Part shown: positions 39,837 to 63,222 of the stretch, piece by piece
Position numbering within the stretch: the stretch's first letter is position 1
How the letters are laid out: every line of letters begins with the position of its first letter
NCBI RefSeq assembly: GCF_000348945.1
Contig: NZ_AOCK01000005.1
Coordinates: 62,001 to 126,000 of the forward strand
Origin: Paeniglutamicibacter gangotriensis Lz1y
GTDB taxonomy: Bacteria > Actinomycetota > Actinomycetes > Actinomycetales > Micrococcaceae
DNA: 64,000 nt
Reading direction: 5' to 3'
Made by a program: the position numbers and the translations under genes
Notes under the pieces: model-generated
The model's database searches: none
What the model saw: the letters and a program-made list of their open reading frames with translations, nothing else
Told to the model about the DNA's origin: nothing

Positions 39837-39863
39837 TGTTGTTAAAAGATGCCCCGGCGAAAG

Positions 39864-41277: not shown

Positions 41278-41333
41278 ACATGTTTCCACACACCACAACC
41301 ACGCATCGAACCACAGAGGCAGGAGCCGAACCC

Positions 41334-42685: not shown

Positions 42686-42747
42686 CCCTTCAGAACCGGC
42701 ACCAACGCCCCCACTGACATCGACTCCTGGAAAGAGACGGCACGTTC

Positions 42748-44379: not shown

Positions 44380-44455
44380 GCACTCCCTCCTATTTCTTCC
44401 CCGCTATCCCCCCTGGATTCCAGGCAGCACCGCACGCCCCTTGAAAGGAACCACC

Positions 44456-47763: not shown

Positions 47764-47799
47764 AATGCGGTGAGAACTCTTACAGATAACGAGACCAGG

Positions 47800-49122: not shown

Positions 49123-50781
49123 TCAGTGCCCCTTGAACGCCTCCGCGAGCCACCAGGATCCTGAGTCCGAGGCGATCTTCGCGTCGATCACCAGAGGCTT
49201 GGCAGGGTTTGAATCCAACCACGTTTGCACGGCGTCCAAATCAGCCAAGCTCCGCACGGTGATCCCCTCGGCACCGAAACCGCGCCCGATCGCTGCGAAG
49301 TCCGTGTCGGGGAACTGCACCGAACTCATGTCAGCATCTGCGTCATCGGCCCCGAAGTGGTGGACCTCCGCCGAATATGCAGCGTCGTTGTAAACGATGC
49401 ATACCAACGGCAGAGAAAGGCGCACAGCGGTGTCCAGCTCGGCGATGGCCATGTGGAAGCCGCCATCCCCGGTGCCCAGCACCGGCATCCTCCCCGGTTG
49501 GGCCAGCGCCGCACCGATGGCCGTCGATAATCCCAACCCGATGGACTGAAATGCCTGGGTGAAGCAGAACCCGAATTCGTCGGGCACCGAGAGGAACTGG
49601 CTGGGATAGCCCATGAAATTCCCCGAATCCACACTCACGATCCGCTCGAGCGGCAAAAGCTCGTCAAGCCGCTTGGTCAGGGCCCGTGGATCGATGCGCC
49701 GGGCATCGGAGAGGTCCTCAAATTCGACCTGGTTCCAGTCGATCGATTCCTTGATACGCGCGGCGACCTCGGTGCTGCGGTAGCCCTCGCGGGCCTGAAC
49801 GTTTCGGTCGAGCAGAGATTCAAGAACGTCCGCGGCACACTGCGCAGAGTCCCCCACCAGCCCGAGATCGATGGGCCGATTGGCACCCAGCGCCTGGTCT
49901 TCTAGATCGATCTGCACCACTGTGGTGCCTGTACCGATCAAGTGACCGTGCCGCATCGTCCACATGTTCAACGCACACCCAAAGGAAACGATCACATCCG
50001 CCCCGGTAATCAGTTCGGCGGCCAGCGGCGAGGAGAACCCTCCGGAAATCCCGAGGTTGAATTCGTCCTCGTTGAACAACCCCTTGGCCACCGCGGAGGT
50101 CGCCACCAGTGCGCCGGTATGCTTTGCCAGAGCCAGGATCTCGTCCCTAGCGCCGCGTCCTCCACGCCCTGCCACAAACACCGGGCGTTCGGCCCGTTCC
50201 AACTGCTCAGCCAGTGCTGCCACCGACGCTCGCGAGGCCCTGATCGGCTCCAGGGTGTCAAACACCACCGGTGTGCGGGCCTGCTCCTCACTAACTTCTT
50301 GGGCTTGGACATTCAGTGGAAGACTCAGCACCACGGTCCGCCGGTCATTGACCGCCCGCTTGTAGGCACGCACGGTGTCGGCGACAGCGGTTTCAGCACC
50401 GTGAACTCGCTCGGGGATCGCGTAAACGGAGGCGGCGAAGCCGTCCTGGTCCATGGCAAAGTTCGAATACACCGCAGATGGCGCAGCCTCGGCGGCCAGC
50501 ACGATCATCGGGGTGCGGGATTTGGCCGCCTCCCCAATTCCGGTAGCCGCGTTAGTCAGCCCGCAGCCTTGATGCACCGAGACCAGTGCGACTTGGTCGC
50601 TGGAGCGGGCGAAGGCATCGGCCATGGTCGCGGCCCCACCCTCGTGCCGGGTCGCGGTGTAGGGCACACCGTGCTCGATCAGCGCATTGGTGAGCGTGAA
50701 GTTTCCCGAGCCCACCACCCCGAAGCAATGTCCTACCCCCAGCTCGGCCAGGGTTTTTCCGACAAGTTGTGCAACGTTCAT
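49123..50781 (-). CDS. ThDP-dependent decarboxylase, benzoylformate-decarboxylase-like; candidate isatinate decarboxylase
   Basis: 552 residues, three-domain ThDP enzyme. Cofactor features are Glu47 in ATRHEGGAATM (activates ThDP) and the GDG...N motif from GTGDGGFHMAIAELD to VCIVYNDAAY. Ser25 (VVGSGNFTL), His70 (VSVHQGCGLTNA) and His278/280 (MRHGHLIG) occupy positions close to Ser26, His70 and His281 of Pseudomonas benzoylformate decarboxylase (numbering recalled, not checked), unlike acetolactate synthase. Isatinate is 2-aminobenzoylformate, so decarboxylation to 2-aminobenzaldehyde is a natural proposal next to an isatin-hydrolase-like gene. Its ATG overlaps the AraC stop (ATGA). Confidence 0.85.
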   Translation of the reverse strand: MNVAQLVGKTLAELGVGHCFGVVGSGNFTLTNALIEHGVPYTATRHEGGAATMADAFARSSDQVALVSVHQGCGLTNAATGIGEAAKSRTPMIVLAAEAAPSAVYSNFAMDQDGFAASVYAIPERVHGAETAVADTVRAYKRAVNDRRTVVLSLPLNVQAQEVSEEQARTPVVFDTLEPIRASRASVAALAEQLERAERPVFVAGRGGRGARDEILALAKHTGALVATSAVAKGLFNEDEFNLGISGGFSSPLAAELITGADVIVSFGCALNMWTMRHGHLIGTGTTVVQIDLEDQALGANRPIDLGLVGDSAQCAADVLESLLDRNVQAREGYRSTEVAARIKESIDWNQVEFEDLSDARRIDPRALTKRLDELLPLERIVSVDSGNFMGYPSQFLSVPDEFGFCFTQAFQSIGLGLSTAIGAALAQPGRMPVLGTGDGGFHMAIAELDTAVRLSLPLVCIVYNDAAYSAEVHHFGADDADADMSSVQFPDTDFAAIGRGFGAEGITVRSLADLDAVQTWLDSNPAKPLVIDAKIASDSGSWWLAEAFKGH

Positions 50782-51857
50782 GAATGCTTCCTTTGTAGCT
50801 GGGATGTGGCTGGTGGTGTGATTGCGGTCGTCGGTGCGCGAAGGCTCGCTTGGTGGCAGGCCAGCGTGCGCGATGGCGGCTCGCCAAAACGCTTGGTGTA
50901 GTAGGCGGAAAACCGGCCAAGATGTTCAAAGCCGACTCGTGCCGCCACGGAACTCACGCTTGGCCTGGCCTCGGGGTTCCCCGCACTGAGCAGGTCCCGG
51001 GCAGCGAGCAGGCGGACCTCGCGCAGATACTGGGCCGGGCTCATGTCAACATGCTGCATGAACACCGTCTGGAGTTGACGCGGGCTGATTCTGACCGCAT
51101 CGGCGACCGAGCCGATCCCGCTGATCTGGGGGTGGTGTTCCTTGATGAAATCCAGGGCCGCGTCCAGGTAGGCGGGACGCACGGGACCGATTTCGCGGCG
51201 CGGTTCAAAGCACTTCAAGTGCGGACCCAGGCCCAGAAGCAACGTGGAAAAGAGCGTGCTCAGCAGCGCTTCCGCGGCACCCGGCAGACTGGCTGCATCG
51301 TTTTGGTCGATGATTCGGCAGCTTTCGATCCAGGTGCTCGCAAAGAGCTCGGGGGCGGCAAGCTGCAGGGGGCGTTCGGAATCCAGGTGGATGTGGCGCT
51401 GCAATTGGCGGCCGCTGATGGTGGAAAACCTCTGGCCCGCCACGGATGCATCAAGTGCCCCAATCAGCGCGCCGCGCTCCGGGTCGGGGACCATCAGCGT
51501 GTGTTCGGTGGAGCTCAGTGCGAACGGGGTGCTTGCCATCCATTGGCGGGAGGAGGATTCGACGAACATCGGGCCCTGTGGAATGACCACCAGGATCCGT
51601 TCCCCGGAGGGCGGGGACTTGATGGTCACCCCGGCACCGTAGCGGACGTCGACAAAGGCGATGGGTCCCAGTTGGGTTCCGTGCACGCGACCCTGCAGCT
51701 GATGTCCTTTGTGCAGCTTCACCAAGTGCTCGTCGTGGGTGAGCTCGTTGACGGCGTGGCGGATCACCGCGGGATCGGTGCTCGATGCCACGGGGTGCTT
51801 CCCGAGAAGCTGTTCTTGCTCGGGGCGTTCCGGCGCCACTACCTTCAACGAGCTCAA
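50778..51857 (-). CDS. AraC-family regulator with AraC-binding-like N-terminal domain
   Basis: About 359 residues from TTG 51857, chosen because AGGAG lies seven bases upstream; GTG 51872 is possible, and the longer frame to 52022 enters the LLM gene. The C-terminal double helix-turn-helix reads ISGIGSVADAVRISPRQLQT and SSVAARVGFEHLGRFSAYYT, ending KRFGEPPSRTL. The N-terminal 200 residues match the AraC-binding-like domain found in regulators of aromatic catabolism. It is embedded in the operon, 88 bases after the LLM gene and overlapping the ThDP gene by four bases. The inducer is probably a pathway intermediate. Confidence 0.88.
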   Translation of the reverse strand: MSSLKVVAPERPEQEQLLGKHPVASSTDPAVIRHAVNELTHDEHLVKLHKGHQLQGRVHGTQLGPIAFVDVRYGAGVTIKSPPSGERILVVIPQGPMFVESSSRQWMASTPFALSSTEHTLMVPDPERGALIGALDASVAGQRFSTISGRQLQRHIHLDSERPLQLAAPELFASTWIESCRIIDQNDAASLPGAAEALLSTLFSTLLLGLGPHLKCFEPRREIGPVRPAYLDAALDFIKEHHPQISGIGSVADAVRISPRQLQTVFMQHVDMSPAQYLREVRLLAARDLLSAGNPEARPSVSSVAARVGFEHLGRFSAYYTKRFGEPPSRTLACHQASLRAPTTAITPPATSQLQRKHS

Positions 51858-51945
51858 CGACGCTCTCCTCACATGTGCTTTCTTGCTGGTGCTTGTCGTG
51901 CTGGGCGGCGGGCTCGTCCGTTGAAAGGCAAACCCGCCGATTTTC

Positions 51946-53088
51946 CTAGCGCGGCAACCGGATGCCGCGTGCTTCCAGCCGCGGCAAGACTTCCTGGCCG
52001 AAATACTCCAGTTCGCCCACATAGTCGACGAACGCCAGCGTCATGCCGTCGAAACCTGCCTTGTGCAGTGCCACAATCTGGTCCGCGACGTCGTCGGGTG
52101 TGCCGACCAGCGGCAACGAGCCGTGGCCGGATGCAAAACGGTCGCGCATGGTGGCGAGCATTTCCGGGGTGAAGGACTGGGCATGCATGCCCTGGAGCGT
52201 CATCAGGTAGTCCACGGCACCCCAGTCGGCATTCTCCCGGGCGTAGTACTCGAGGTATTCCTCGGCTTCGGCCCGGGTGGGGCGGCAGACGACGTGTCCC
52301 AGCGTGAACACCCCGACTTCCCTGTTGAAGTGCTCGCGGGCCTGTGCCTTCACGGTGGAGACGATCTGCGCGCCGGTTTCGGCGTCGGGCACGATCGTGA
52401 ACACGAAGTCAGAGTTCCGTGCCGCGTAGGCTCGGCCCTGTCCCGAGGAACCGGCATTGAGGATCGGCACCCGATTGCCGTGCGGCTTCGGCTCGGACTC
52501 GGCGCCACGCAGCTTGAAGTGCTTGTTTTCAACATCGAAGATGCCGGGCTCTTCCCAGGCCTTGAGCACCACATTGCACCATTCCTGTGCGAATTCGTAG
52601 CGTGCGTCGTGTTCGTGGTCCAACAGCGCGCCCATGGCTTCATATTCGGGCTGGTTCCAGCCTGCAACGATGTTTAGGCCGGCTCGCGAGCCGCCGCCGA
52701 GCTGATCCAGGGTGGCCATCTGCTTGGCCGTCACCATCGGGTGGTTGAACGCGGTGTGGACCGTCGAAAAAACGCTGATTCGCTCCGTGCTGCTCAGAAT
52801 AGCAGCGGCCCAGACGATCGGGTCGAGCACGCTTCCGTGGAAGTTGGTGTCGCCCTTGTAGCCAATCCACCGGGCAATGGGCAGCAGGAAATCGATGCCG
52901 ATCTTGTCCGCAAGCTGTGCCATTCGCAGATTTTCACCCCAGGTGGCACCCCAGCGTTCTTCGATCTTGGTTACCGCTAGGCCACCCGAGCAGTTCGAAG
53001 AGAAGAGCCCGAGCTTGAAATCCTTGCCATCAAGAATCTGACGAGTCACGATTTTGTCCTGTTCTGTTTCGGTGGTCATGGTGGTCAC
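51946..53088 (-). CDS. LLM-class FMN-dependent monooxygenase, RutA-like
   Basis: 380 residues from GTG 53088, which overlaps the flavin reductase stop (GTGA); ATG 53079 is an alternative. RutA-type features are KLGLFSSNCSGGLAVTKIEE, ERWGATWGENLRMAQLADKI, GLNIVAGWNQPEYEAMG, RVPILNAGSSGQGRAYAARN and a C-terminal VGTPDDVADQIVALHKAGFD. Such enzymes use reduced FMN and O2 to oxygenate heterocyclic amides (uracil for RutA) or aldehydes. The reductase is encoded in the overlapping upstream gene, making a two-component oxygenase. Candidate substrates in this island are isatin-type amides or 2-aminobenzaldehyde (inference). Confidence 0.9.
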   Translation of the reverse strand: MTTMTTETEQDKIVTRQILDGKDFKLGLFSSNCSGGLAVTKIEERWGATWGENLRMAQLADKIGIDFLLPIARWIGYKGDTNFHGSVLDPIVWAAAILSSTERISVFSTVHTAFNHPMVTAKQMATLDQLGGGSRAGLNIVAGWNQPEYEAMGALLDHEHDARYEFAQEWCNVVLKAWEEPGIFDVENKHFKLRGAESEPKPHGNRVPILNAGSSGQGRAYAARNSDFVFTIVPDAETGAQIVSTVKAQAREHFNREVGVFTLGHVVCRPTRAEAEEYLEYYARENADWGAVDYLMTLQGMHAQSFTPEMLATMRDRFASGHGSLPLVGTPDDVADQIVALHKAGFDGMTLAFVDYVGELEYFGQEVLPRLEARGIRLPR

Positions 53089-53543
53089 CTGTTCTCAATG
53101 GCGTGCACTTCGCCAAGCATGATGAGGTGGTCTCCACCGTCATAACGCTTGACCAATACACAATCCATGCGCGTTCCTGCCAGTACCAATGCGGGACTTC
53201 CCACCGACGTCAGGGGTGCTTCCAGACCGCGGAATTTCTCCGCGCCTCGCTGCGCGAACCGCGTGATCCATTCCTGTTGGCCTTCGTCGAGAATGTGGAC
53301 CGAGAAGGCCTCGGTGGTGCTCCACGATTCGATGGATGAAGACTTGCGGTCCACGCACCAGGAAACGAGCGGCGGATCCAGCGAAACGGAGTTGAAGGAG
53401 TTGCACACCAGGCCGACGGGTTGGCCGTGTGCGCCAGTGGCGGTCACGATGGTTGTCCCTGTTTTCCAGGCCTGCATGCCCGCTCGCAATTCCTCGGGCC
53501 GGACCGTGGTGGTCCGGCCCCCGTCAGTGGAAGAAAGACTCAT
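53085..53543 (-). CDS. flavin reductase (HpaC/StyB-like)
   Basis: 152 residues from the ATG at 53543 (MSLSSTDGGRTTTVRPEELR). An ATG at 53594 would put the shared AraC-type motif (53581-53602) inside the gene and is less likely. The flavin reductase fold shows AWKTGTTIVTATGAHGQPVG, LVCNSFNSVSLDPPLVSWCV, HILDEGQQEWITRFAQRGAE and the terminal GDHLIMLGEVHAIE. It reduces free FMN/FAD with NAD(P)H and supplies the overlapping LLM oxygenase; it could also feed StyA1, whose partner StyA2B already carries its own reductase domain. Confidence 0.9.
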   Translation of the reverse strand: MSLSSTDGGRTTTVRPEELRAGMQAWKTGTTIVTATGAHGQPVGLVCNSFNSVSLDPPLVSWCVDRKSSSIESWSTTEAFSVHILDEGQQEWITRFAQRGAEKFRGLEAPLTSVGSPALVLAGTRMDCVLVKRYDGGDHLIMLGEVHAIENR

Positions 53544-53580
53544 ATTGGCATCCCTAGCAACGACAGATTTCCCAACGCAA

Positions 53581-53602
53581 TTGCGCTGTTGCATCCATGC
53601 TG
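53581..53602 (-). promoter_or_regulatory. candidate AraC-type operator upstream of the flavin reductase/LLM genes
   Basis: On the + strand TTGCGCTGTTGCATCCATGC closely matches TTGCGCACATTGCATCCGATGC in the divergent AraC/SDR promoter at 60191-60212. It lies 38 bases upstream of the reductase ATG. Such a shared long motif within one catabolic island suggests a common regulator. Confidence 0.45.
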
Positions 53603-53675
53603 TCAGCGACTGTGACGCGGATCTATCCGTTTCCGGATGACCGTTGTCCGCTTTGCGCTGCGTACCGGAGCTGAA

Positions 53676-54449
53676 CTATTTCTGGACCATGGCCAGCACA
53701 CGGGTCGGCGCACCGGTCCCGCCGACGATCGGCAGCGGGGCCACCACGATCAAGGCTCCGTGGGTGGGCAGCTTGTCGAGGTTCTTCAGCGAGGTAATCC
53801 CATACTTGTCGGCTCCCAACAGGTGGTAGTGCATCGGGAACGGCGGGTTCAGCACGGCGGCGTTGCCGGCGTCGATGCCCACGGTTTCCACGCCGATGCC
53901 GGAGATCTCCAGCTCCTCGGCGATCCACTTGGCACACTCGGCGGTGAAGCCCGGGGTGTGGGAGCCGTTTTCGTCCAAGTTCAGGAAGGCCTGCTTGTCG
54001 TGTCCGAACTTGTCCCAGCCGGTCCGGAAGAGCAACCAGGCGTTCGTCGGGAAGTCACCGTTTTCTTCCTGCCACGCAACCAAGTGCTCCACGTCGATGA
54101 GAAAGTCAGGGTCCGCCGCGGACTCGGCACTGAAGTCCAGCACCACGGCCGGTCCCACCAGGCGAGCCGGATCCAGCTGGGAGACGTCCTTGCCCTCACG
54201 ACCGGAAATCCAGTGGATGGGGGCGTCGATGTGCGTGCCGATGTGCTCGCCGGTGTGGATGTTGTGGTGCTTCCAGAACGGGCCGGTCTCGTTGTATGCG
54301 GAGACCTCGTCGATGCTGAAGTCGATCAGGTTCGAGAACGGCTCGGGCAGCACCAACGTCGGGGTCTCTGCGGACAGCGGGGCCGTCAGGTCGTGGATTT
54401 CAACGGCACCGGTGGCCAGCGACGCAAGGACTTGTTGTACGGGACTCAT
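53676..54449 (-). CDS. cyclase-family metal hydrolase, isatin-hydrolase-like
   Basis: 257 residues, ATG 54449 preceded by CTGGAG. The diagnostic metal site HIGTHIDAPIH is complete: His69, His73, Asp75 and His79 in the HxGTHxDxPxH pattern shared by isatin hydrolases, kynurenine formamidases and related Mn/Zn amidohydrolases. The fold elements ALIVVAPLPIVGGTGAPTRV and GVETVGIDAGNAAV fit as well. In this neighbourhood, with indole-monooxygenase-type genes, ring opening of isatin to isatinate is the best guess; formyl-kynurenine-type amide hydrolysis is the alternative. It belongs to the leftward operon, with a 146-base gap on its upstream side carrying a palindrome. Confidence 0.88.
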   Translation of the reverse strand: MSPVQQVLASLATGAVEIHDLTAPLSAETPTLVLPEPFSNLIDFSIDEVSAYNETGPFWKHHNIHTGEHIGTHIDAPIHWISGREGKDVSQLDPARLVGPAVVLDFSAESAADPDFLIDVEHLVAWQEENGDFPTNAWLLFRTGWDKFGHDKQAFLNLDENGSHTPGFTAECAKWIAEELEISGIGVETVGIDAGNAAVLNPPFPMHYHLLGADKYGITSLKNLDKLPTHGALIVVAPLPIVGGTGAPTRVLAMVQK

Positions 54450-54513
54450 CGGAACTCCAGTGTTTGGGATGGAGGGCGCCTACGCGTCCACCGGTCTTGA
54501 CTGTCGAAATATT

Positions 54514-54527
54514 GTGACGATCGTCAC
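54514..54527. promoter_or_regulatory. 14-bp perfect palindrome upstream of the cyclase gene
   Basis: GTGACGATCGTCAC is fully palindromic and sits 65 bases upstream of the cyclase ATG, in the only sizeable gap of the leftward operon. A TTGACT-like hexamer lies just left of it. It may mark an internal promoter with its own operator. Confidence 0.35.
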
Positions 54528-54595
54528 GGACATGCGACTTATGAACAACCTACCAGCGCGTCGGGGCTAACAGAACCCCCTTCTCACATTGCGGA

Positions 54596-56218
54596 TCATA
54601 GGCGTTTGGAACGTTTACCCGCGCGGATCAATTGCTGGGCCACCAGGTGCCCGGAACCTCCGCCCAGGCCGGGTCCCGGATGCGTTGCCGCGCCGATGTG
54701 CCAAAGGCCCTTCACCGGCGAGCGCCCCTTGCCCAGCCTCGGAAGCGGGCGCCACAAGAGATTTTGATACAACTCGGCAGCCCCGCCGTACGGGTCGCCG
54801 GCCACGGCATTCCGGTTTGCCTGGCTGAGCTGCTGCGGGCTGAACGCCTTGGTGCCCAGCGCCAGTTCGCCAAGTCCCGGTGCATACTGCTCAATGGTGG
54901 ACAGCACGCGCTGGATGAATGCTTCGGTGAGTTTTTCGTCCCACCCCGCACTGGTGTCGAGTTCCCCCGCGGCGTCGCCGTCGGGTTCGAAAGGAAGCTC
55001 CTGCAGTTGGAGCCACAGGGTTGCTTGGCCCTCCGGTGCGCGCGAGGGATCGAGCACGCATTGCTGGCCCACCACGATGGTCGGGTTTGCCGGAAGCAGC
55101 CCGGCCTCGGCCTGTGCGCAGGCGATGGCAGTTGAATTTGAACCCGTAGAGATGTGGACCAGCGGGGTTTGGGCCAGCCGTTCGTCGCTCCACGGCACGG
55201 GGCCCGAAAGCGCGACGTGTATTTGCATGGCTGCGCGGCCGGGCCGGTGGGCGCGGACCTCCCTCCGGGTTTGTTCCGGAACCACGGGTGCCTCGAGCAA
55301 TTCGGTGTAGAGCTGCGGCACCGAGACGGAGGCCAGCACGCCCTTGCGTGCAGTGATGGTTTCATTTGCGGTCCGCACGGCCCTTGCCCTGCCGCCGGTG
55401 ACAACCACGCCCTCGGCGCGGGTGCCTTTGCGGATCACCACGGCGTGGTCGGTGAGCAGTGATTCAAAGGCCGCAACGAACCGCGCGGCCCCGCCCTGCA
55501 CCACGGGCAAGCCGAATTGATGTATACTCGCCGACATCACGGGAAGCATGACTCCGCCGCTGGCCTGTTCGGGGCCGATCCCCGCATGCAGAAGCCAGGG
55601 CGCCCACAACTGGTCGACCTCGTTTCCGGTGAAGCTGCCGCGAGTCAGATTCCGCCCGCTCATCAGGCCTTGGCGTACCAGTTGCTGCGCCTTCGACAGG
55701 CCCATGCGCACCATCTTGAAGCCAAGCCTCGCGGCGCTTGGCAGGTTCATTTCGCCGCCCAGTGCCCCGAAGACGACCGGGGCTTGGTCCCCGAAATCCA
55801 TTAGCAGGCGTGCATAGGCTTCGCGGTCGGAGCGGTGTTCGAAGGCGCTTGCCGTGGCTTCCGGGTCCCGGGTCGCCAGCACCGTGGTGGTGGCGCCGGC
55901 CGCGTCGGTGCCGATGCTGGCGCACACCCATGGGATGCCAGCATCCTCGGTGTTTCTGTAGCGTAATCCCCGCACATGCAATTCCCGGCCCAGCTCCGCA
56001 TAGGCGGCACCCGCAATGAACAGTGGATGCCAGGAGGAGAACGTGTCGTGGATGAACCCGGGCACCGTCAGTTCGCCGGAATCGATGAAACCGCCGAGCT
56101 TGTCATGTTCCTCGAGCAGCACCACGCTTGCCCCGCTGCGCGCCAGTTCGGCCGCCGCGACCAGGGAGTTGATACCCGAGCCAATCACCACATAGTCGGT
56201 TTCCATGTTCTCACTCAT
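54596..56218 (-). CDS. FAD-dependent oxidoreductase of the phytoene-desaturase type
   Basis: 540 residues. The N-terminal FAD-binding signature is YVVIGSGINSLVAAAELARS followed by GASVVLLEEHDKLGGFIDSG. The C-terminal part carries the second flavin-contact motif GLWHIGAATHPGPGLGGGSG. The architecture is that of phytoene dehydrogenase / CrtI-like amine oxidoreductases. No carotenoid genes are present; the gene lies 15 bases downstream of the StyA2B gene in the same operon. A dehydrogenase acting on hydroxylated indoline or indoxyl intermediates is possible (inference). This class of enzyme is not a usual member of known indole pathways that I recall. Confidence 0.88.
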   Translation of the reverse strand: MSENMETDYVVIGSGINSLVAAAELARSGASVVLLEEHDKLGGFIDSGELTVPGFIHDTFSSWHPLFIAGAAYAELGRELHVRGLRYRNTEDAGIPWVCASIGTDAAGATTTVLATRDPEATASAFEHRSDREAYARLLMDFGDQAPVVFGALGGEMNLPSAARLGFKMVRMGLSKAQQLVRQGLMSGRNLTRGSFTGNEVDQLWAPWLLHAGIGPEQASGGVMLPVMSASIHQFGLPVVQGGAARFVAAFESLLTDHAVVIRKGTRAEGVVVTGGRARAVRTANETITARKGVLASVSVPQLYTELLEAPVVPEQTRREVRAHRPGRAAMQIHVALSGPVPWSDERLAQTPLVHISTGSNSTAIACAQAEAGLLPANPTIVVGQQCVLDPSRAPEGQATLWLQLQELPFEPDGDAAGELDTSAGWDEKLTEAFIQRVLSTIEQYAPGLGELALGTKAFSPQQLSQANRNAVAGDPYGGAAELYQNLLWRPLPRLGKGRSPVKGLWHIGAATHPGPGLGGGSGHLVAQQLIRAGKRSKRL

Positions 56219-56233
56219 CTCTAGGTCACGGTC

Positions 56234-57967
56234 TTAACTGAAATCAGGGTGCAGGGCGGTGCGGTGGTAGGCCCCGGCGTGGAACACCAATGGATCCCCG
56301 GAGGTTTTGGAGTACTTTTCCACCTCGCCCACGTAGATGACGTGGTCGCCGGCCTCGTGCCTGGCCACGGTACGGCACTGAAACGTGGCCACGGCGCCCT
56401 CCAGCAGCGGAACCCCGGCGATTCCCTCCGAGCAGTCGACGCCCGCGAATTTGTCGTCGGCAGGGGTTGCGAATTGGCGCGAAAGCACATGCTGAGAGGA
56501 TTCAAGCACGTTGATGGCAAAGTGCGTTGAGGATTCGAAGTCATCCAACGACGGGGCGAACTTGCTGGGGCACCAGAGCACCAACGGCGGATCCATCGAC
56601 ACCGACGTGAACGAGTTCGCGGTCATGCCCGCCTTGGTCCCCTGTGGGGTGCGGGTTGTCACGACGGTGACGCCGGTGGCGAATTGGCCCAGCGTGGAGC
56701 GGAAGTCGCGCATGTCGAAGGTTGCGCTTTCCTCGGCCACGGCGCGTTCGACGAACGCTTGGGCTTCCTCCGGTTCGAACCACCACGGGAAAAGGGTGCG
56801 CGGGTCGTCGAATCCATTGGTCAGCGCGGTGGCCAGGGACTCGTGGTCTTGCGCCTTGGCGAGCACCTCCAGCTGCCAGGGTTTGCGCTCTCGCAGCATG
56901 GAGTTGGTCCACACCGTGGAGAATTGTCCCCAGCCGCGCCAGAATTCATCGAAAGTGTGCTCCATCCACGCGGAGTCGAAGTCCTTTTCGCCCCGGGCTT
57001 CTATGGCACGGGCATAGTGGTCGGCGGCAAGCGTTGCGTTGTTCGAACCCTGGCCGGTGAGTGAATCGTTGAGCATGATCGCATCACCCAAGCCCATGAT
57101 GGTCCGGCCGCTCGGCAGCGTGCCCACGGCCGAACGGACCACTGGGTTGATGCGGCCACGCAAGCCCGCTCCGGGGTCATTCAGGGTTGAAGTCTCGAAG
57201 CGCGGGTATTCGTGAGGGAAATGCCGGCGCAGGATGTCCAGGGTCATCGCCAGGTGTTCCTCGGGGCTGGACACGGTGTCCCAGCAATCCATGGGCCCGC
57301 CGGGGACACCCTCGAAAACCATCATCTGGCAGGGACCGTGGATGCTCATGCCGGGGAAGGTGAAGAACTCTCCGACGCCGGGCACCATGTTCATCCTGAT
57401 CTTCGTGGCGTCCTCGCGGTCCTCGGTGCCCTGCGCCGGCTTCACATAGGTGACGGCAACCGCGCGCTGCGCACGGTCGAAGGGCGACTTGGCGCGGTCG
57501 GTGGCGAATATCTGGCCCAGTTGGCCCTTGCCGGTGCCCACCACCACGAGTTCGTAGAGCGCGGTGAGCTCTTCGAGCCTGCGCACGGAGAGCTTCTCGA
57601 TGCGGAAGTCGCCCCCGCGGCCAATGAAGGTTTCGATCCAGTGCGCGCATTTCACGCGTTGGTCAACCGACAGCGCCGGGCGGTCAAGTGTGCCTTGCCA
57701 ATCGATTTCCTCCCGGTCCGGCCCCGCCGCGATGTTCAGGTGCAGCCCGGTGATACCCATTTCATGGGTGGTAGCCAGCGGAATTTCCAGCGGTTGCTGG
57801 ACCCGCAGCGAGGAGGAGAAGACGCATTGGCTCGAGGTGATCGAGCCGGTGCGGATCTGTTGGGCCGGGCGGTCGGAGAACAGTGTGACGTTGTGCCCCG
57901 AGCGCTGCAGGGCGAGGGCAAGCTGGGCACCGGATTCTCCGGCCCCAACGATGGCGATCGTACGCAT
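56234..57967 (-). CDS. StyA2B-type fused indole/styrene monooxygenase and flavin reductase
   Basis: 577 residues from the ATG at 57967, with GGAG seven bases upstream; the longer frame is non-coding. Residues 1-410 are a StyA-like FAD monooxygenase: IAIVGAGESGAQLALALQRS, RTGSITSSQCVF, MNMVPGVGEFFTFPG and MLNDSLTGQGSNNATLAADH. From about residue 418 a flavin reductase domain follows: DFRSTLGQFATGVTVVTTRT, GMTANSFTSVSMDPPLVLWC and AGDHVIYVGEVEKYS. This fusion is the StyA2B architecture described in Rhodococcus opacus 1CP, which works with a separate StyA1 encoded alongside, exactly as here. It epoxidises styrene-like or indole C=C bonds. Confidence 0.93.
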   Translation of the reverse strand: MRTIAIVGAGESGAQLALALQRSGHNVTLFSDRPAQQIRTGSITSSQCVFSSSLRVQQPLEIPLATTHEMGITGLHLNIAAGPDREEIDWQGTLDRPALSVDQRVKCAHWIETFIGRGGDFRIEKLSVRRLEELTALYELVVVGTGKGQLGQIFATDRAKSPFDRAQRAVAVTYVKPAQGTEDREDATKIRMNMVPGVGEFFTFPGMSIHGPCQMMVFEGVPGGPMDCWDTVSSPEEHLAMTLDILRRHFPHEYPRFETSTLNDPGAGLRGRINPVVRSAVGTLPSGRTIMGLGDAIMLNDSLTGQGSNNATLAADHYARAIEARGEKDFDSAWMEHTFDEFWRGWGQFSTVWTNSMLRERKPWQLEVLAKAQDHESLATALTNGFDDPRTLFPWWFEPEEAQAFVERAVAEESATFDMRDFRSTLGQFATGVTVVTTRTPQGTKAGMTANSFTSVSMDPPLVLWCPSKFAPSLDDFESSTHFAINVLESSQHVLSRQFATPADDKFAGVDCSEGIAGVPLLEGAVATFQCRTVARHEAGDHVIYVGEVEKYSKTSGDPLVFHAGAYHRTALHPDFS

Positions 57968-58017
57968 TGAAAACTCCAGTGGTGTGGGAAGTATGTGGAG
58001 GGGAGGGCGTGCTGGCG

Positions 58018-59253
58018 CTAGTGCACCGTGTTGAAGGATCCGAGATAGGCCTCTGCCGCCTGTTCGTCGAGAAACCACTGGGCGAAGTCCGGCGGGAAGT
58101 CAAACCCGTTGGCAAAGCGTTTGGCGATTTGGTCGTTTTCCTGTGCCGCGCCCAGCAGCGTCATCGCGTGCGGCGTGGGTGGCGCGAGCATTGCATTGGT
58201 CCAGGCGGCCACGTGTTGCGCGTCTTCCCAGTAGCTTTCGAATAGGCCCTGCTTGAAGGCATCGTCGAAGGCGTTTTCGCCCCGTTCGAGAATTCCGGCC
58301 AGGTAGGCTGCTGCACACTTGGAGGCATTGTTGGAGCCCTGCCCGGTGATCGGGTCGTTGAGCACCACCACGTCGGCCATGCCCAGCACGGTCTTGCCGG
58401 AGGGCAGGGTGGCCAGCGGGTGGCGCACGGTCGGCGGGAAACGTCCCTGAAGCACGCCGTTGCGGTCGGTGAGCTGGACATCGGCACAGCGTTCCGCTTC
58501 CCATGGCAGATAGGTGCGCAGGATGCGCAGCGAATTTTCCAGGTGCTCCTGTGGGCTCAGCCCCTTCCATGAATCTATGTCGGAACCCGGCAGCCCCTCG
58601 AACACCATGATCTCGCAGGGGCCGGTGACCGTGAGCGCAGGGAAGACGAAGTACTCCCCGACACCCGGGATCACGTTGAAGTTCACGGCCGAGAATTCCT
58701 CGCGCGGCTTCATGCCGGTCACGTAGGTCAAGGCGAGGGCCCGCTGGGGTGCGGCGTACTGGCTCCGCTCGGCATCGCGTTCGAAGAGCTGGGCAATCTC
58801 GCCCTTGCCGGCAGCAACGAGCACCAGTTCGCTGGTCTCGGCGTAGCGTTCGAGGTCCTCGACACCAGCGTCCTCGAAGACCAGTGTTCCTCCGCGGGCC
58901 TCGAAGATTCCCATGAGTGCGGGAAACTTGACCCGCTGGTCGATGGATTGGGCCGGCGCATCGAGCCGGTGAGCCCAGCTGATGGCCTTGACGCCCGGTG
59001 CTTCCGGCGGGGCGACAGCGAAGGATATGCCCTCAACCCGCGGGGCGTCGGGCCACAGGTCAAGACCCAGGTTGCGTTCGTGCCCCAGGGCCGCGTCGAA
59101 CATACACTGGCTGGAAGCTATGGAGCCGGTGCGAATTTGTTCCGGGGTGCGGTTGGAGATCAGTGCGACGTCGTAGCCGGCGTCGATCAGTCCGATGCCG
59201 AGCTGAAGTCCGGATTGTCCTGCTCCAACGATGGTGATGGTGCGTGGTGCCAT
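58018..59253 (-). CDS. StyA1-type flavoprotein monooxygenase (indole/styrene monooxygenase)
   Basis: 411 residues. FAD-binding ITIVGAGQSGLQLGIGLIDA is followed by RTGSIASSQCMFDAALG, FNVIPGVGEYFVFPALTVTG, and VVLNDPITGQGSNNASKCAA. Ser47-x-Gln49-x-Met51 aligns with the S-Q-M fingerprint that, as I recall, separates indole monooxygenases from styrene monooxygenases. It has no reductase domain and would use reduced FAD from StyA2B (50 bases downstream) or the stand-alone reductase. The product from indole would be the 2,3-epoxide / 3-hydroxyindolenine, leading to indoxyl and, with further oxidation, isatin. Indigo formation is a typical side reaction. Confidence 0.92.
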   Translation of the reverse strand: MAPRTITIVGAGQSGLQLGIGLIDAGYDVALISNRTPEQIRTGSIASSQCMFDAALGHERNLGLDLWPDAPRVEGISFAVAPPEAPGVKAISWAHRLDAPAQSIDQRVKFPALMGIFEARGGTLVFEDAGVEDLERYAETSELVLVAAGKGEIAQLFERDAERSQYAAPQRALALTYVTGMKPREEFSAVNFNVIPGVGEYFVFPALTVTGPCEIMVFEGLPGSDIDSWKGLSPQEHLENSLRILRTYLPWEAERCADVQLTDRNGVLQGRFPPTVRHPLATLPSGKTVLGMADVVVLNDPITGQGSNNASKCAAAYLAGILERGENAFDDAFKQGLFESYWEDAQHVAAWTNAMLAPPTPHAMTLLGAAQENDQIAKRFANGFDFPPDFAQWFLDEQAAEAYLGSFNTVH

Positions 59254-59309
59254 GGTCTTGGTTCCTTGCTCTCGCTAAACGGTGTGTGGGAGTGTGTTGC
59301 GCAGGACGA

Positions 59310-60098
59310 CTAGTTTGCTGCCAACAGCGGGATGGCCGGCTCATTGCGCTCCGGTCCGAGCGCCGAGTATCCGCCATCGACGGCCCAGTCGGCGCCAGTG
59401 ACAAATGAGGTTTGGTCGGACAGCAGGAAGGCCACGACGTTGCCTACTTCTTGGGGGCGCCCGACCCGGCCAAGGAGGTGGAACGGGGCCGCCACGGCAT
59501 CGGTCTTGGCCAGGTCGCCGCCGGTGAGCGTGTCCATGATCTTGGACCAGGTCCAGCCCGGGCTGACCGAGTTCACCCGGATGCCCTCGGCCGCAAGGTC
59601 CGCGGCCATGGAACGGGTGACCTGCACGAGTGTTGCCTTGCTGGCGGGGTAGAGCCAGCGACCGGTCTGCGAGATGCCGCTGGAAATCGAGGTGAAGTTG
59701 ACGATCGACCCGTGTCCGGACGCCGCAAGCATCGGGCGTGCCAAGCGGGCAAGCATCACGGCGGAGACCACGTTGATGTTCAGCGCGCTGAGCCAGTCGG
59801 CCCTGTTCGATTCGATGCCGTCATCGAGGTAGCTGCAGGCCAGGTTCACCAACCCGTCGAGCCGCCCGTGGGTCGCCTCGATGCCAGCCATGAGGGTTTC
59901 AAGGGCAGCGTCGTCGGTAATGTCCAGCACATGGAATTCAACCTCGGGATGCTGCACCTGCAGCTCGGCCCCGCCGACTTCATCGATGTCTACCACGATG
60001 ACGCGGGCTCCCGACTCGATGAGCGATCCGGCAACCCCGGCGCCGACCTTGGTGGCTCCTCCTGTGAGCAATACGACGCGATCCTGCAGCGAATTCAT
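59310..60098 (-). CDS. short-chain dehydrogenase/reductase of the indole-oxidation operon
   Basis: 262 residues from the ATG at 60098, with GGGAGGAAAGCC upstream; the longer frame to 60341 crosses the divergent promoter. SDR features are VVLLTGGATKVGAGVAGSLI (cofactor), LDITDDAALETLMAG, the NLAC variant of NNAG, and the active site GRWLYPASKATLVQVTRSMA with Tyr-x-x-x-Lys, ending TGADWAVDGGYSALG. By analogy with the SDR in the Acinetobacter iif operon, it could oxidise an indole-dihydrodiol or related hydroxyindoline. It is the first gene of the leftward operon. Confidence 0.9.
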   Translation of the reverse strand: MNSLQDRVVLLTGGATKVGAGVAGSLIESGARVIVVDIDEVGGAELQVQHPEVEFHVLDITDDAALETLMAGIEATHGRLDGLVNLACSYLDDGIESNRADWLSALNINVVSAVMLARLARPMLAASGHGSIVNFTSISSGISQTGRWLYPASKATLVQVTRSMAADLAAEGIRVNSVSPGWTWSKIMDTLTGGDLAKTDAVAAPFHLLGRVGRPQEVGNVVAFLLSDQTSFVTGADWAVDGGYSALGPERNEPAIPLLAAN

Positions 60099-60189
60099 GG
60101 CTTTCCTCCCGACAGACGATGTGTGACCTGTGTCATAATTAGTGGCCTGAGAAAAACCTACGTGCCGGGACCACGTCTCCACTATCCGT

Positions 60190-60219
60190 TTTGCGCACAT
60201 TGCATCCGATGCGCGCAAA
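60190..60219. promoter_or_regulatory. inverted repeat / candidate AraC-type operator in the divergent promoter
   Basis: TTTGCGC (60190-60196) and GCGCAAA (60213-60219) are exact complements, with an inner GCAT-CCG-ATGC dyad. The same sequence shares a long motif with 53581-53602. It sits between the divergent SDR operon and the AraC gene that starts at 60254. Confidence 0.5.
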
Positions 60220-60253
60220 GCAAAAGCACTGCACATGCGAAGGAGAACTCTGC

Positions 60254-61270
60254 ATGCTGAGCCAGCAGCACGCCATTCCTTCAGCCATCCGCGTGCTTGA
60301 CGCTTTGCCGACACTGCAAACCCCGGACCCGATCGAAGCACAGGAACGCATCAGCCAGCTCTTTTGCCCGCACACACTCCGGCCACTTTCGAGCCGCGGC
60401 ACGGTGAAGCTGAACCTGCGCTCGACCGGCACGGGTTTCGGGGTGCACCTGCTGGACTATGGAACGGCGGTGCGCATATCCCCCGGCGCATTGGAAACGT
60501 TCTTCATGGTCCAGGTTCCGCTCGCCGGCAGCGCCCAGCTGCACAGTTCGGGATCAGTGGTCGAATCGACGCCCACCGTGGCTTCGATTCCCCCGATAGA
60601 CGATGACTTCTCCATGACCTGGCAGGCGGGAACGCCGCAATTGATTGTCACGGCCCCGCGCGAGCTGCTTAACAATGCAGCCTCGGCCCTCTACGGGGCA
60701 AAATTGGAGGCTCCGCTGAAACTGGCGAAGAGCATGAACATCGACACCCCGGAGGGCCAGTCGTTCATGCGCGCAGTCTTTGAATATCACGACGTGGTCA
60801 ACACCCAGGGCGCCGCACAAACCCCTTACGCCCGGCGCCTGCACGAAGAGTTGGTGCTGGCACGTTGGCTCATGGCGGCGAAATCCAACTTTTCCGCGGC
60901 CCTGGCCCAATGGGAGGCCCCGGTGGAAGAAACCAGGAGCTCCCCACTGGTCATGGCATTCACCGACCTCCTGGAAATCCACAGCGAAGAGGACCTCAGC
61001 GTTGGCGACCTGGCCGAGGCGCTGGGCGTATCGATTCGCACCCTTCAAGTCGCGCTAGCCAAGGAACTGGGCTCCACCCCGTCGCAGATGCTGCGCGAGG
61101 CGCGCCTGGTCCACGCCCACGCTTTGCTCACCGATGCCGATCCGCGCACCGATAGTGTGACAAGCATTGCCGAGCGCTGCGGATTCGGGCACCTGGGCCG
61201 TTTCGCGCAGTCCTACCGTAGGCACTTCGGCTTCCCGCCCTCGCAGACCCTGCGCGGCTCCTCCAGGTAA
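60254..61270 (+). CDS. AraC-family regulator, divergent from the indole-oxidation operon
   Basis: 338 residues from the ATG at 60254, with AGGAGA upstream. The N-terminal 210 residues form an AraC-binding-like domain (GTVKLNLRSTGTGFGVHLLD, ETFFMVQVPLAGSAQLHSSG). The C-terminal DNA-binding part has EDLSVGDLAEALGVSIRTLQ and VTSIAERCGFGHLGRFAQSY, ending RHFGFPPSQTL. It resembles the AraC at 50778 in architecture; both carry the G-F-x-H-L-G-R-F core. Divergent orientation and a dyad in the shared promoter mark it as the likely local activator. The inducer is expected to be indole or a derived acid. Confidence 0.9.
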   Translation: MLSQQHAIPSAIRVLDALPTLQTPDPIEAQERISQLFCPHTLRPLSSRGTVKLNLRSTGTGFGVHLLDYGTAVRISPGALETFFMVQVPLAGSAQLHSSGSVVESTPTVASIPPIDDDFSMTWQAGTPQLIVTAPRELLNNAASALYGAKLEAPLKLAKSMNIDTPEGQSFMRAVFEYHDVVNTQGAAQTPYARRLHEELVLARWLMAAKSNFSAALAQWEAPVEETRSSPLVMAFTDLLEIHSEEDLSVGDLAEALGVSIRTLQVALAKELGSTPSQMLREARLVHAHALLTDADPRTDSVTSIAERCGFGHLGRFAQSYRRHFGFPPSQTLRGSSR

Positions 61271-61281
61271 CCCTTCGTCTG

Positions 61282-61767
61282 CTAGTTCTCCAGGGCCGCG
61301 CGAAGAGCTTCCGGCCAGGGCGCAGATTTCTCGCTGCCTTTGGGCACGCAAACCGTAATGAAGCGTCCCTCGGCCGCCAACGCCCAGCCGCGGTTCCCGT
61401 GGGGGTGCCCCCACACCTTGAAGGCGAAGTTCATCGAGCTGGTTCCGAGGCGTTCCACCACCACGGCTGTGGTGACTGCCTGCCCGAAGTAGAGTTTCGC
61501 GCGATAGTCGATTTCATGGCGCACCCGCGGTGCGCTGCCGAAGTACTCATCAACGCCCATTTCCCGGAAGAGTTTGGCTTCGGCGGCCTCCACAAACCGC
61601 ATGACCACGGAGTTGTGCTGGTGTCCTGCGGCATCGGTGTCGACCCATTCGATATGGCGTTCAAGTGCGCTTCCGGCCAGTCCGGAAGCCAGGAACTCCT
61701 TCACCGCGGCGGAAACCTGGGGCATCGATCCAGTGGCCTCATCTTTCGAGTTTTCGTTCATCGTCAA
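61282..61767 (-). CDS. hotdog-fold acyl-CoA thioesterase (4-hydroxybenzoyl-CoA thioesterase-like)
   Basis: About 161 residues from TTG 61767, or 159 from ATG 61761; GGAGA lies just upstream. The single hotdog domain has the HBT signature HIEWVDTDAAGHQHNSVVMR with catalytic Asp, followed by FVEAAEAKLFREMGVDEYFG, HEIDYRAKLYFGQAVTTAVV and GWALAAEGRFITVCVPKG. It would hydrolyse aryl- or acyl-CoA esters, fitting an aromatic pathway that passes through CoA thioesters. Convergent with the AraC gene and divergent from the aromatic acid permease gene, with which it shares about 110 bases of upstream DNA. Confidence 0.87.
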   Translation of the reverse strand: MTMNENSKDEATGSMPQVSAAVKEFLASGLAGSALERHIEWVDTDAAGHQHNSVVMRFVEAAEAKLFREMGVDEYFGSAPRVRHEIDYRAKLYFGQAVTTAVVVERLGTSSMNFAFKVWGHPHGNRGWALAAEGRFITVCVPKGSEKSAPWPEALRAALEN

Positions 61768-61878
61768 CCAATCTCCATTCAGGTCTTGTAACGTACGTCA
61801 CTTTAACGCCATAATACAAGCGTTCGTTGTTCCACCACCATCATTTCGCGAAACCTTTACCCACAAGGAGCTCTCAGC

Positions 61879-63222
61879 ATGGCGGCAACACCAACCAGCA
61901 GCGACTGGAAGATCCCCAAACGCACCACCTCCATGGTCCTCTTCGCTTGCTGGCTGGCCATCCTGGCCGAGGGCTACGACGTCGGAGTCCTCGGAGCGGT
62001 CCTCCCGGCCCTATCGGAATACAAGGAGTGGTCGTTGACGCCGATGGAGCTGGGCGGGCTCGGGGCCTATGCCTTGGTCGGCATGCTCTTTGGTGCATTG
62101 TTCATCGGAACTCTCAGCGACATCATCGGCAGGCGCAAGATGCTGCTGCTCTCCATGGTGATCTTCACGATCACACAGGCCGGTGCGGCACTGGCCCCGA
62201 CCCCGGAAGTGTTCGGCGCCTTCCGCTTCCTCGGCGGTTTGGGCATGGGCGGCATCATCCCCGTCGCTGCGGCACTGACCATTGAGTACTCGGCTCCCCG
62301 GAAGCGTTCGCTTAACTACGGGATCATGTACTCGGGTTACTCACTGGGCATCGTCGCTGCAGCCCTGGTCGCAATGGCGCTGCTTCCCGTTTTGGGCTGG
62401 CGCTGGGTGGTAGCCGTGGGCACCTTGCCCGTGTTGATCCTCCCGGTGGTCGCCTGGATGCTTCCCGAATCCCTTGAGTACTTGGTCTCCAAGGGCCGGA
62501 TCGCCGAGGCCAAGACCTTGGCCAAGAAGTTGAATGTCCGCGACTACCGTCCCGTGGCACCGGCGAACCCCGGCCGACGCATTCCCTGGCGCGAGGTTAT
62601 GGCCTCAATGTTCTCCGCTAAGTACTTGCGATCCACGGTGTTCTTTTGGATCTCACTCTTCTGCGGCATGGTGCTGGTCTATGGCCTAAACACCTGGCTG
62701 CCACAGATCATGCGCAAGGCCGGTTACGACCTGGGCTCCTCCTTGGCGTTCCTGCTGGTCTTCTCCCTCGCCTCGGCGGCCGGAGGTCTGGTACTCGGAT
62801 CATTGGCCGACAAATTCGGACAAAAACCCATTCTCGTCATTTTCTATCTCTTGGGTGCCGGCGGCATCCTGTTGCTAATGTTCCCGAACACTATGTTCAT
62901 CAACCTCTGCTTTGTGGCATTTGCCGGTATCGGGTCAATCTCCACCTCACTGGTACTCACCGGATACATCGCCGATTATTACCCCGCCGCCCAGCGTGGC
63001 ACGGCCACGGGATGGGCCTTGTCCTTCGCCCGCATTGGAGCGATCTCGGGGCCGATCATTGGCGGCTGGATTGCCTCGACCGGCCTGAGCTTCGAGTTCA
63101 ACTTCGTTTTCTTCGCCATCGTCGGGGTGGTTGCAGCCATCGCGGTGGCACTGATCCCCAAACGGGTCGTCGAATCGCCATCCGCGATGCCGAGCCTCGA
63201 GCGCGAGGCCGCGCTGGACTAG
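61879..63222 (+). CDS. MFS aromatic acid:H+ symporter (AAHS family)
   Basis: 447 residues, AAGGAG upstream of the ATG. Twelve helices with AAHS signatures: EGYDVGVLGAVLPAL in helix 1 (the D-x-x-x-x-G charge motif needed for aromatic acid transport in PcaK/BenK), IGTLSDIIGRRKMLLLSMVI between helices 2 and 3, and GSLADKFGQKPILVIFYLLG between 8 and 9. It would import an aromatic acid such as anthranilate, benzoate, indole-acetate or a hydroxybenzoate with protons. Its place beside the indole/isatin genes suggests a nitrogen-containing aromatic acid. A terminator follows. Confidence 0.93.
   Translation: MAATPTSSDWKIPKRTTSMVLFACWLAILAEGYDVGVLGAVLPALSEYKEWSLTPMELGGLGAYALVGMLFGALFIGTLSDIIGRRKMLLLSMVIFTITQAGAALAPTPEVFGAFRFLGGLGMGGIIPVAAALTIEYSAPRKRSLNYGIMYSGYSLGIVAAALVAMALLPVLGWRWVVAVGTLPVLILPVVAWMLPESLEYLVSKGRIAEAKTLAKKLNVRDYRPVAPANPGRRIPWREVMASMFSAKYLRSTVFFWISLFCGMVLVYGLNTWLPQIMRKAGYDLGSSLAFLLVFSLASAAGGLVLGSLADKFGQKPILVIFYLLGAGGILLLMFPNTMFINLCFVAFAGIGSISTSLVLTGYIADYYPAAQRGTATGWALSFARIGAISGPIIGGWIASTGLSFEFNFVFFAIVGVVAAIAVALIPKRVVESPSAMPSLEREAALD

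Follow-up and report, generated by a model that had tools for sequence, protein, structure and literature searches.

A mosaic gene island in Paeniglutamicibacter gangotriensis Lz1y that probably serves aerobic catabolism of indole through isatin

Does isatin lie on the path by which bacteria break down indole and, if so, which enzymes would carry it onwards to anthranilate? The question is raised by a gene island in Paeniglutamicibacter gangotriensis Lz1y, located at positions 49123-63222 of the window, by which we mean the whole 64,000-nucleotide stretch analysed (contig NZ_AOCK01000005.1; G000:C5:62001-126000, where G numbers denote genomes, G000 being the 4.32 Mb parent genome of the window, and L numbers denote loci). 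A sequence-only reading of this DNA had proposed a route from indole via isatin and isatinate to anthranilate, with a candidate enzyme for every step. Our analysis upholds this outline, in that the island probably encodes a modular, aerobic catabolism of indole via isatin, all reactions of which are predicted from the genes. The support comes from the match of the oxygenase StyA1 to the structure 7z4x, the matches of a cyclase to isatin hydrolases, the pairing of this cyclase with thiamine diphosphate (ThDP) enzymes, and adjacent genes for anthraniloyl-coenzyme A (CoA). We also lean, less firmly, towards a broader proposition, namely that in Actinomycetota, and in some bacteria outside this phylum, isatin would be a metabolic node fed by interchangeable front ends, with three ThDP architectures recruited for isatinate, the oxidoreductase version of which would lead to 2-aminobenzoyl-CoA without a ligase.

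Profile searches recovered every gene of the earlier reading at the place and on the strand given there. A run on the minus strand opens with a short-chain dehydrogenase/reductase (SDR; 59310..60098; Pfam and NCBIfam SDR models), and continues with a predicted indole monooxygenase of the StyA1/IndA1 type (58018..59253; PF17885), StyA2B/IndA2B, in which a monooxygenase domain is fused to a flavin reductase (56234..57967; PF17885 + PF01613), a CrtI-like FAD oxidoreductase assigned at superfamily level only (54596..56218), and the isatin-hydrolase-like cyclase, called IsaH here (53676..54449; PF04199). Then follow a flavin reductase (53085..53594; PF01613), a luciferase-like monooxygenase (LLM; 51946..53088; PF00296), the AraC-family regulator AraC2 (50778..51839; PF12833/PF14525) and a ThDP enzyme, putatively an isatinate decarboxylase (49123..50781; TPP N, M and C domains). 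From the SDR to the flavin reductase the gaps calculated from the coordinates are 56, 50, 15, 146 and 81 bp; the flavin reductase and LLM genes overlap by 4 bp, LLM and AraC2 are about 106 bp apart, and AraC2 and the ThDP gene again overlap by 4 bp. The start of AraC2 is uncertain, its open reading frame (ORF) extending to 52022, and the StyA2B ORF can open at 58078, with relatives aligning to the 577-aa form from its first residue.

In the route that we propose, StyA1/StyA2B would oxygenate indole at C2-C3 to a diol or oxide, as their close homology suggests, and the SDR, by analogy with IifB, would oxidise the indole-2,3-diol or oxide to 3-hydroxyindolin-2-one, which the CrtI-like enzyme, judged by its position, would convert to isatin. 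IsaH would hydrolyse isatin to isatinate, in keeping with its family and catalytic residues. The ThDP enzyme, in view of its pairing with IsaH and its active-site residues, would decarboxylate isatinate. The simplest product would be 2-aminobenzaldehyde, to be converted to anthranilate by a general aldehyde dehydrogenase (ALDH); alternatively, the ThDP enzyme itself would perform an oxidative decarboxylation. A neighbouring ligase and hydroxylase-reductase would take anthranilate to (hydroxy)anthraniloyl-CoA, after which a TesB thioesterase, a cupin, a FAA hydrolase and RidA would serve release and ring cleavage. The AraC regulators presumably sense a pathway intermediate, and the LLM/flavin reductase cassette between IsaH and the ThDP gene may be a second front end or a helper.

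With regard to the first step, the best solved match of StyA1 is 7z4x (548 bits, E 1.3e-163), which we take to be the indole monooxygenase VpIndA1, the printed title of the entry being only 'putative dehydrogenase/oxygenase subunit'; the match to the styrene monooxygenase 3ihm reaches 146 bits (E 1.5e-41). StyA1 thus appears to be nearer to indole than to styrene monooxygenases, a placement that draws in part on our identification of 7z4x. The indole-monooxygenase fingerprint S46-Q48-M50-V/I73-I76-A96 (PMC13101512; this and all later literature is cited from the parts of each source available to us) is matched at S46, Q48 and M50 by the SSQCM segment of StyA1, and StyA2B has V at position 50. 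Positions 73, 76 and 96 of StyA1 read E, S and L at a fixed offset, whereas the VEGI segment aligns to VDGI of 7z4x, and the last three fingerprint positions are numbering-dependent. A second StyA2B, 44% identical, lies outside the cluster in a genus-mate (L009; G002:C1:1917549-1919267).

The order SDR-StyA1-StyA2B-CrtI-IsaH-ThDP recurs in other genera, for example in a Paenarthrobacter nitroguajacolicus strain (L206) and in P. aurescens TC1 (L178). Among 395 sampled genomes of the family Micrococcaceae, 25 have the CrtI-like gene and 24 of these, our own genome counted, also have StyA2B. Because the order recurs in other genera and the two genes keep together in 24 of 25 genomes, the grouping is not due to chance; co-occurrence in other Micrococcaceae, which had been suggested as a check, is thereby established. 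The single CrtI-like genome lacking StyA2B is G112, where a 51% identical homologue is found at 8718-10292 of L083 and no StyA, IsaH or ThDP gene was found in the 18 kb fetched. The SDR adjoins StyA1 in 14 of 40 mapped family loci, which were hand-picked from matches to the ThDP and CrtI-like genes. In L111, L162 (Pimelobacter simplex) and L226 (a Tsukamurella tyrosinosolvens plasmid), an FMO-like protein holds the StyA1/StyA2B slot between SDR and CrtI, and L225, an Azospirillum thermophilum plasmid, has in a row an SDR, an indole/styrene monooxygenase, a flavin reductase, a transporter, a CrtI homologue (39%) and IsaH. Since the arrangement is kept when the oxygenase is swapped, and also in this alphaproteobacterium, SDR, oxygenase and CrtI-like enzyme seem to form a unit that would supply IsaH irrespective of the oxygenase used.

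The oxygenase module might instead act on another aromatic compound (styrene, an aryl sulfide, skatole or a substituted indole), with IsaH and the ThDP enzyme handling a derivative and indole being a side substrate. Relatives in Arthrobacter sp. Rue61a have indeed been tied to styrene co-metabolism (PMC3534580), and VpStyA1/A2B have been reported as sulfoxidases (PMC6017014). We nevertheless consider this unlikely, as the scanned genes of the run include no ALDH or styrene oxide isomerase family, the enzyme type of R. opacus 1CP is described as uninduced by styrene and called an indole monooxygenase (PMC13101518), and the isatin-hydrolase-like and anthraniloyl-CoA genes best suit an indole skeleton.

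As for the steps after isatin, the best PDB matches of IsaH are isatin hydrolases (5nnb, 5nna, 5nmp and 4j0n), with E values of 5e-72 to 1e-63 over nearly the full length. The metal and catalytic residues of these enzymes (HxGTHxDxPxH, D193 and H207), whose roles have been described (PMC6117287), are present, and H69, G71, T72, H73, D75, H79, D193 and H207 are invariant in 18 sequences. The metal motif on which the earlier reading had relied for the cyclase is thus well conserved, but a second signature, discussed below, is altered, and we therefore call IsaH isatin-hydrolase-like, its activity being predicted, and do not count it as a proven isatin hydrolase.

The strongest regularity that we found is that IsaH adjoins a ThDP enzyme. 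A sample of 296 Actinomycetota genomes contained 37 with an IsaH match at 1e-30; besides our own genome, the 26 with E <1e-60 were kept and 10 weaker ones (34-40% identity) dropped. IsaH adjoins a ThDP enzyme in 24 of the 26: a window-type ThDP gene lies on the same contig within 0.7 kb of IsaH in 17, and in 6 the position directly upstream of IsaH is taken by a split ThDP enzyme. The match to the ThDP gene is partial in G672 and G652, and in G577 the ThDP gene beside IsaH is cut by the contig end. The split subunits are nearest to the alpha and beta subunits of sulfopyruvate decarboxylase, under cut-off, in the one pair tested. A second scan took the 80 named loci scoring best by likeness to the window's IsaH, a set biased to near relatives and overlapping with the genomes above (L138 = G001 and L215 = G474, for instance). 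Five of these (L177, L205, L207, L208, L209), in which contigs end near IsaH, were set aside, and L183 was counted as a miss despite its short contig. A ThDP enzyme is paired with IsaH in 72 of the 75 uncut loci, comprising 67 full-length window-type enzymes and one split enzyme within 1.5 kb, and four indolepyruvate-oxidoreductase-like pairs at IsaH (L150, L162, L192, L200). Lastly, the ThDP gene is present in 121 other family genomes; IsaH was detected at 1e-50 in 102 of these, within 2.5 kb of the ThDP gene in 97 and within 250 bp in 91. All pair counts are from tblastn maps; heuristic gene calls missed some genes.

Outside these samples, 57 plasmid records had IsaH (8 regions read) and 9 had the ThDP enzyme (two more read). 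The pair was present in two Deinococcus plasmids, with ligase, ACMR-type hydroxylase-reductase and RidA genes alongside in the one region read. In Bosea vaviloviae, whose ThDP enzyme is 43% identical, IsaH was not found in the region read. With some 6-36 ThDP-like candidates per genome among the matches listed for the phylum sample, such neighbours of IsaH should rarely arise by chance, and the pairing supports ThDP chemistry on isatinate. Isatinate is a 2-oxoacid. That three different ThDP architectures sit at IsaH suggests that the product of IsaH is the substrate of the ThDP enzyme. Their domains are distantly related, and we infer, from comparison rather than from a tree, that the three were recruited independently. 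SDR, DLH, anthranilate and indolepyruvate genes have been mentioned near indole-monooxygenase clusters (PMC6165268), and the indolepyruvate genes among them would fit the third, oxidoreductase-like architecture.

The window's ThDP enzyme has no near solved relative, the best PDB match being 138 bits, and the nearest structures are benzaldehyde lyase, the HKA synthase BbmA and 2-hydroxyacyl-CoA lyase. These structures would agree with a carboligase or lyase acting on another substrate, whose link to IsaH came from co-regulation with anthranilate degradation, as would four ThDP loci in genomes without IsaH (L095, L100, L105, L107), where genes of the ACMR set still lie alongside. This explanation is distinctly unlikely in our view, given that three architectures occur at IsaH, two of which are nearest to 2-oxoacid decarboxylase or oxidoreductase models, and that isatinate is itself a 2-oxoacid.

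Between IsaH and the ThDP gene lies the flavin reductase-LLM-AraC2 cassette, an arrangement shared, among the loci mapped, by the window and L077 only; in L092 and L103 the cassette stands beside the IsaH-ThDP pair. With L183 and L200 there are six loci, the window counted, that have an LLM near IsaH, and a flavin reductase accompanies it in L077, L092, L103 and L200. A different luciferase-like monooxygenase (PF00296) lies between the ligase and ACMR genes of L112 (10495-11445) and has a homologue in L114. The cassette is a separate insertion. The pair of flavin reductase and LLM genes is present as first described, but it cannot readily be placed in the indole route; similarly, what had been called one leftward operon is indeed a continuous minus-strand run, whereas a single operon overstates the case, since the cassette is missing elsewhere. 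One could imagine, and this chemistry is our own suggestion, a type II Baeyer-Villiger-like reaction by LLM and flavin reductase as the main route, from isatin to isatoic anhydride and on to anthranilate, bypassing the ThDP enzyme. The six loci would be consistent with it; however, most loci with IsaH and the ThDP enzyme yielded no LLM, the nearest NCBIfam models of the LLM (SfnG, NtaA/DmoA, RutA) are all under cut-off, and IsaH is accompanied by a ThDP enzyme far more regularly, so that we hold this idea to be very unlikely.

Comparison with relatives indicates that the island is a mosaic of modules. In four loci of genus-mates (L085, L086, L087, L108) the array is ACMR genes-ThDP-IsaH-thioesterase-MFS, and no oxygenase was found in these arrays; in the window, L070, L071, L076 and L077, SDR-StyA1-StyA2B-CrtI lies between IsaH and the thioesterase. 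Within the genus, StyA2B occurs with at least 83% identity in 4 of 15 genomes, our own included, and the ThDP gene in 12 of 15. In the window, AraC1 (~60254..61270, plus strand; PF14525 + PF12833), a regulator divergent from the run whose start is uncertain (ORF open from 60191), is followed by a 4HBT-type thioesterase (61282..61767, minus strand; PF13279) and an aromatic acid:H+ symporter-type MFS protein (61879..63222, plus strand; TIGR00895, 307.5 bits, not reaching the cut-off of 418.55). For both AraC1 and AraC2 the nearest NCBIfam model is AndR, under cut-off. The thioesterase and permease, present as the sequence-only reading had it, belong to a core that is shared with relatives devoid of the Sty module.

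The front ends that appear to swap are the SDR-oxygenase-CrtI unit, the LLM and an auxin-like set of ligase and thiolase, for the IsaH-ThDP pair adjoins acyl-CoA ligase and thiolase genes in L101, L102, L084 and L227. L101 (7582-14740) and L102 (7151-14010) contain IsaH-ThDP, an acyl-CoA ligase, a thiolase-like protein and an MFS gene, possibly an auxin front end in Micrococcaceae. In Roseibium aggregatum, Sulfitobacter dubius and Paracoccus saliphilus, IsaH is part of Rieske dioxygenase-ligase-thiolase operons of the kind named iad, to which the ThDP rule does not extend because there is no adjacent ThDP gene. Isatin-hydrolase-family genes inside such operons were seen at L222 (a Roseibium aggregatum plasmid), L223 and L228, and the crystallised Labrenzia type of isatin hydrolase may serve auxin degradation. 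That the window's cluster itself degrades indole-3-acetic acid via isatin, rather than indole, is highly improbable despite these iad-type operons and the four ligase/thiolase loci, as the genes scanned in 49123-63222 include no Rieske dioxygenase, thiolase or ligase and have an indole-monooxygenase-type oxygenase instead.

The predicted indole route would continue to the left of the ThDP gene, in a set of genes (39090-46852) that the earlier reading had missed. The set comprises a PaaX-like regulator (39090..39755, plus; PF20803/PF08223), a RidA-family protein (39864..40283, minus; PF01042), a FAA-hydrolase family protein (40426..41277, plus; PF01557), a small cupin that is possibly a ring-cleavage dioxygenase (41334..41819, plus; PF07883; no PDB sequence match at E 0.01), a TesB-type acyl-CoA thioesterase (41816..42685, plus; TIGR00189 under cut-off, PF02551), an aryl-CoA ligase, probably an anthranilate-CoA ligase (42748..44379, plus), and a bifunctional salicylyl/2-aminobenzoyl-CoA hydroxylase-reductase of the ACMR type (44456..46852, plus). 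The ligase best matches anthranilate-CoA ligase 4wv3 (5.2e-71), followed by benzoate-CoA ligase (4.8e-68). ACMR, a fusion of PF01494 (FAD monooxygenase) and PF00724 (old yellow enzyme-type reductase), scores 1207.9 bits against NF006101 (cut-off 1078). Anthranilate is reportedly degraded solely via CoA thioesters in Arthrobacter sp. Rue61a (PMC3534580). With TesB, cupin, FAA hydrolase and RidA in the set, the lower pathway may not be purely CoA-bound but may instead involve release of 5-hydroxyanthranilate and ring cleavage of a gentisate-like kind. Between these genes and the ThDP gene there is a Fic-domain gene (47770-49077), of which no homologue was found among the labelled called genes of the 40 family loci.

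Of the 38 fetched family loci that have a ThDP gene, 17 contain genes of the ACMR set, counted from labelled gene calls, close to the IsaH-ThDP pair or to the ThDP gene. Outside the family, 7 of 18 loci have such genes close to the pair (L111, L112, L114, L116, L117, which has the ligase only, L122 and L125). In L231, a Caballeronia sp. SBC1 plasmid, IorAB-like genes, thioesterase, ACMR, cupin, FAA hydrolase and IsaH lie together (6700-19086), and no CoA ligase was found in the 20 kb read. This single case would fit a direct conversion of isatinate to 2-aminobenzoyl-CoA, and a ligase-free route is possible; other clusters with an indolepyruvate-oxidoreductase-like enzyme keep a ligase (L150, L226).

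Several observations speak against the route through isatin and isatinate, or against parts of it. The CrtI-like enzyme, placed at the third step by its position, has no functional precedent and is among the weakest links; its fold search matched only the broad desaturase/amine-oxidase superfamily, with gamma-carotene desaturase 4rep nearest (TM 0.68) for a model of moderate confidence (pLDDT 72.8). IsaH reads GITS where isatin hydrolases have GLQC or GLAS, the motif said to mark isatin hydrolase activity (PMC6117287), and 17 other IsaH sequences have GITS, GVTS, GLTQ, GITQ, GVTQ or GLAQ at this site. The pocket residue Trp61 of LaIHA is His in IsaH, although Trp59 is retained; Trp61 is present in the IsaH of L080, a cluster with the same modules. 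No ThDP enzyme of either type was found near IsaH in G511 and G611 of the phylum sample, none was found in L149, L153 and L183 of the named scan, and 19 of the 121 family ThDP genomes lack IsaH at E 1e-50. The IsaH and ThDP genes are 2.9 Mb apart in G256, and a weaker IsaH (40%) lies 4.3 kb from the ThDP gene in Agrobacterium pusense. In Caballeronia the oxidoreductase genes belong to the same set but are about 8 kb from IsaH, and four proteobacterial IsaH regions read (three iad-type, one Azospirillum) have no adjacent ThDP gene. Finally, the ACMR and ligase models cannot separate anthranilate from salicylate or benzoate.

The exact product of the ThDP enzyme is likewise among the weakest links. 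S25, E47 and H70 align with S26, E47 and H70 of benzoylformate decarboxylase (1bfd) and are kept in 15 of 15 members, so that the label 'benzoylformate-decarboxylase-like' holds for these residues. It does not hold for membership: His281 of benzoylformate decarboxylase is Thr (T275) in 15 of 15, the window's protein is 22% identical, and we rejected an identification as benzoylformate decarboxylase. Nor does the direct formation of anthranilate from isatinate by a ThDP decarboxylase, as first proposed, agree with the chemistry, for simple decarboxylation would give 2-aminobenzaldehyde. No dedicated ALDH was found near the island, and a search of 148 loci with two ALDH queries from the own genome detected such genes in no more than 4 at 1e-25 and in 5 at 1e-10; in Sulfitobacter, an ALDH is annotated some 1.8 kb away from IsaH. 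As the own genome has 21 match rows for PF00171, oxidation of 2-aminobenzaldehyde by a general ALDH encoded elsewhere is possible.

How does this island compare with known systems? We rejected its membership in the iif, iad or styrene clusters, the defining families of which are absent from the genes scanned in 49123-63222. The iif/ind clusters of Acinetobacter O153, Cupriavidus SHE and P. savastanoi WHOP are alike in combining a group E indole oxygenase with an SDR and in having anthranilate as product, and that of WHOP likewise has an AraC-family regulator (PMC6221969, PMC12538310). In contrast to iif, no cofactor-independent, DLH-like oxygenase of the IifA type was found among the genes scanned in the island; IifA provides a direct route to anthranilate, and here the CrtI-like enzyme, the isatin-hydrolase-like cyclase and the ThDP enzyme stand in its place, with CoA genes for anthranilate alongside in the window. 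IndA1/IndA2B (formerly StyA1/StyA2B) of Rhodococcus opacus 1CP and Variovorax paradoxus EPS have the same two-protein architecture with a fused reductase, and the available parts of the papers on them name no isatin hydrolase or ThDP partner. In Rue61a, chromosomal StyA2B/StyA1 (ARUE_c02440/50) and anthranilate-CoA genes (ARUE_c41730/20) are homologous to the window modules, and the paper, in its available parts, makes no connection between the former, linked there to styrene, and the latter (PMC3534580). The isatin hydrolases LaIHA, LaIHB and RsIHA resemble IsaH over nearly the full length and in catalytic residues, and differ at the GLQC/GLAS site and at Trp61; benzoylformate decarboxylase shares the Ser26, Glu47 and His70 equivalents with the window type and differs at His281.

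The iad auxin pathway of Variovorax CL14 and Bradyrhizobium is similar in that isatin and isatinate are reported en route to anthranilate, and IadI is annotated as a kynurenine formamidase (PMC12633357, PMC9613470); it differs in starting with a Rieske dioxygenase, followed by ligase and thiolase. Section 5 of the 2025 preprint names no ThDP gene among iadC-K2, assigns no gene to the step from isatinate to anthranilate, and gives C8H7NO3 and C7H7NO as likely intermediates ahead of anthranilate in Variovorax (PMC12633357). The two formulas correspond to isatinate and 2-aminobenzaldehyde, in line with decarboxylation of isatinate. A 2018 review asks whether the breakdown of indole truly passes through isatin or whether isatin is a dead end, as iif has no isatin genes (PMC6221969). 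In the titles and abstract openings of mainly openly licensed literature we found no description of an IsaH-ThDP pair or of a ThDP isatinate decarboxylase. Indole catabolic clusters as such are already known, and it is the isatin branch with ThDP enzymes that appears to be undescribed. The island and its relatives supply candidates both for the role of isatin and for the step to which the preprint assigned no gene, and would connect the removal of indole and of auxin through one shared node in cultivable soil bacteria.

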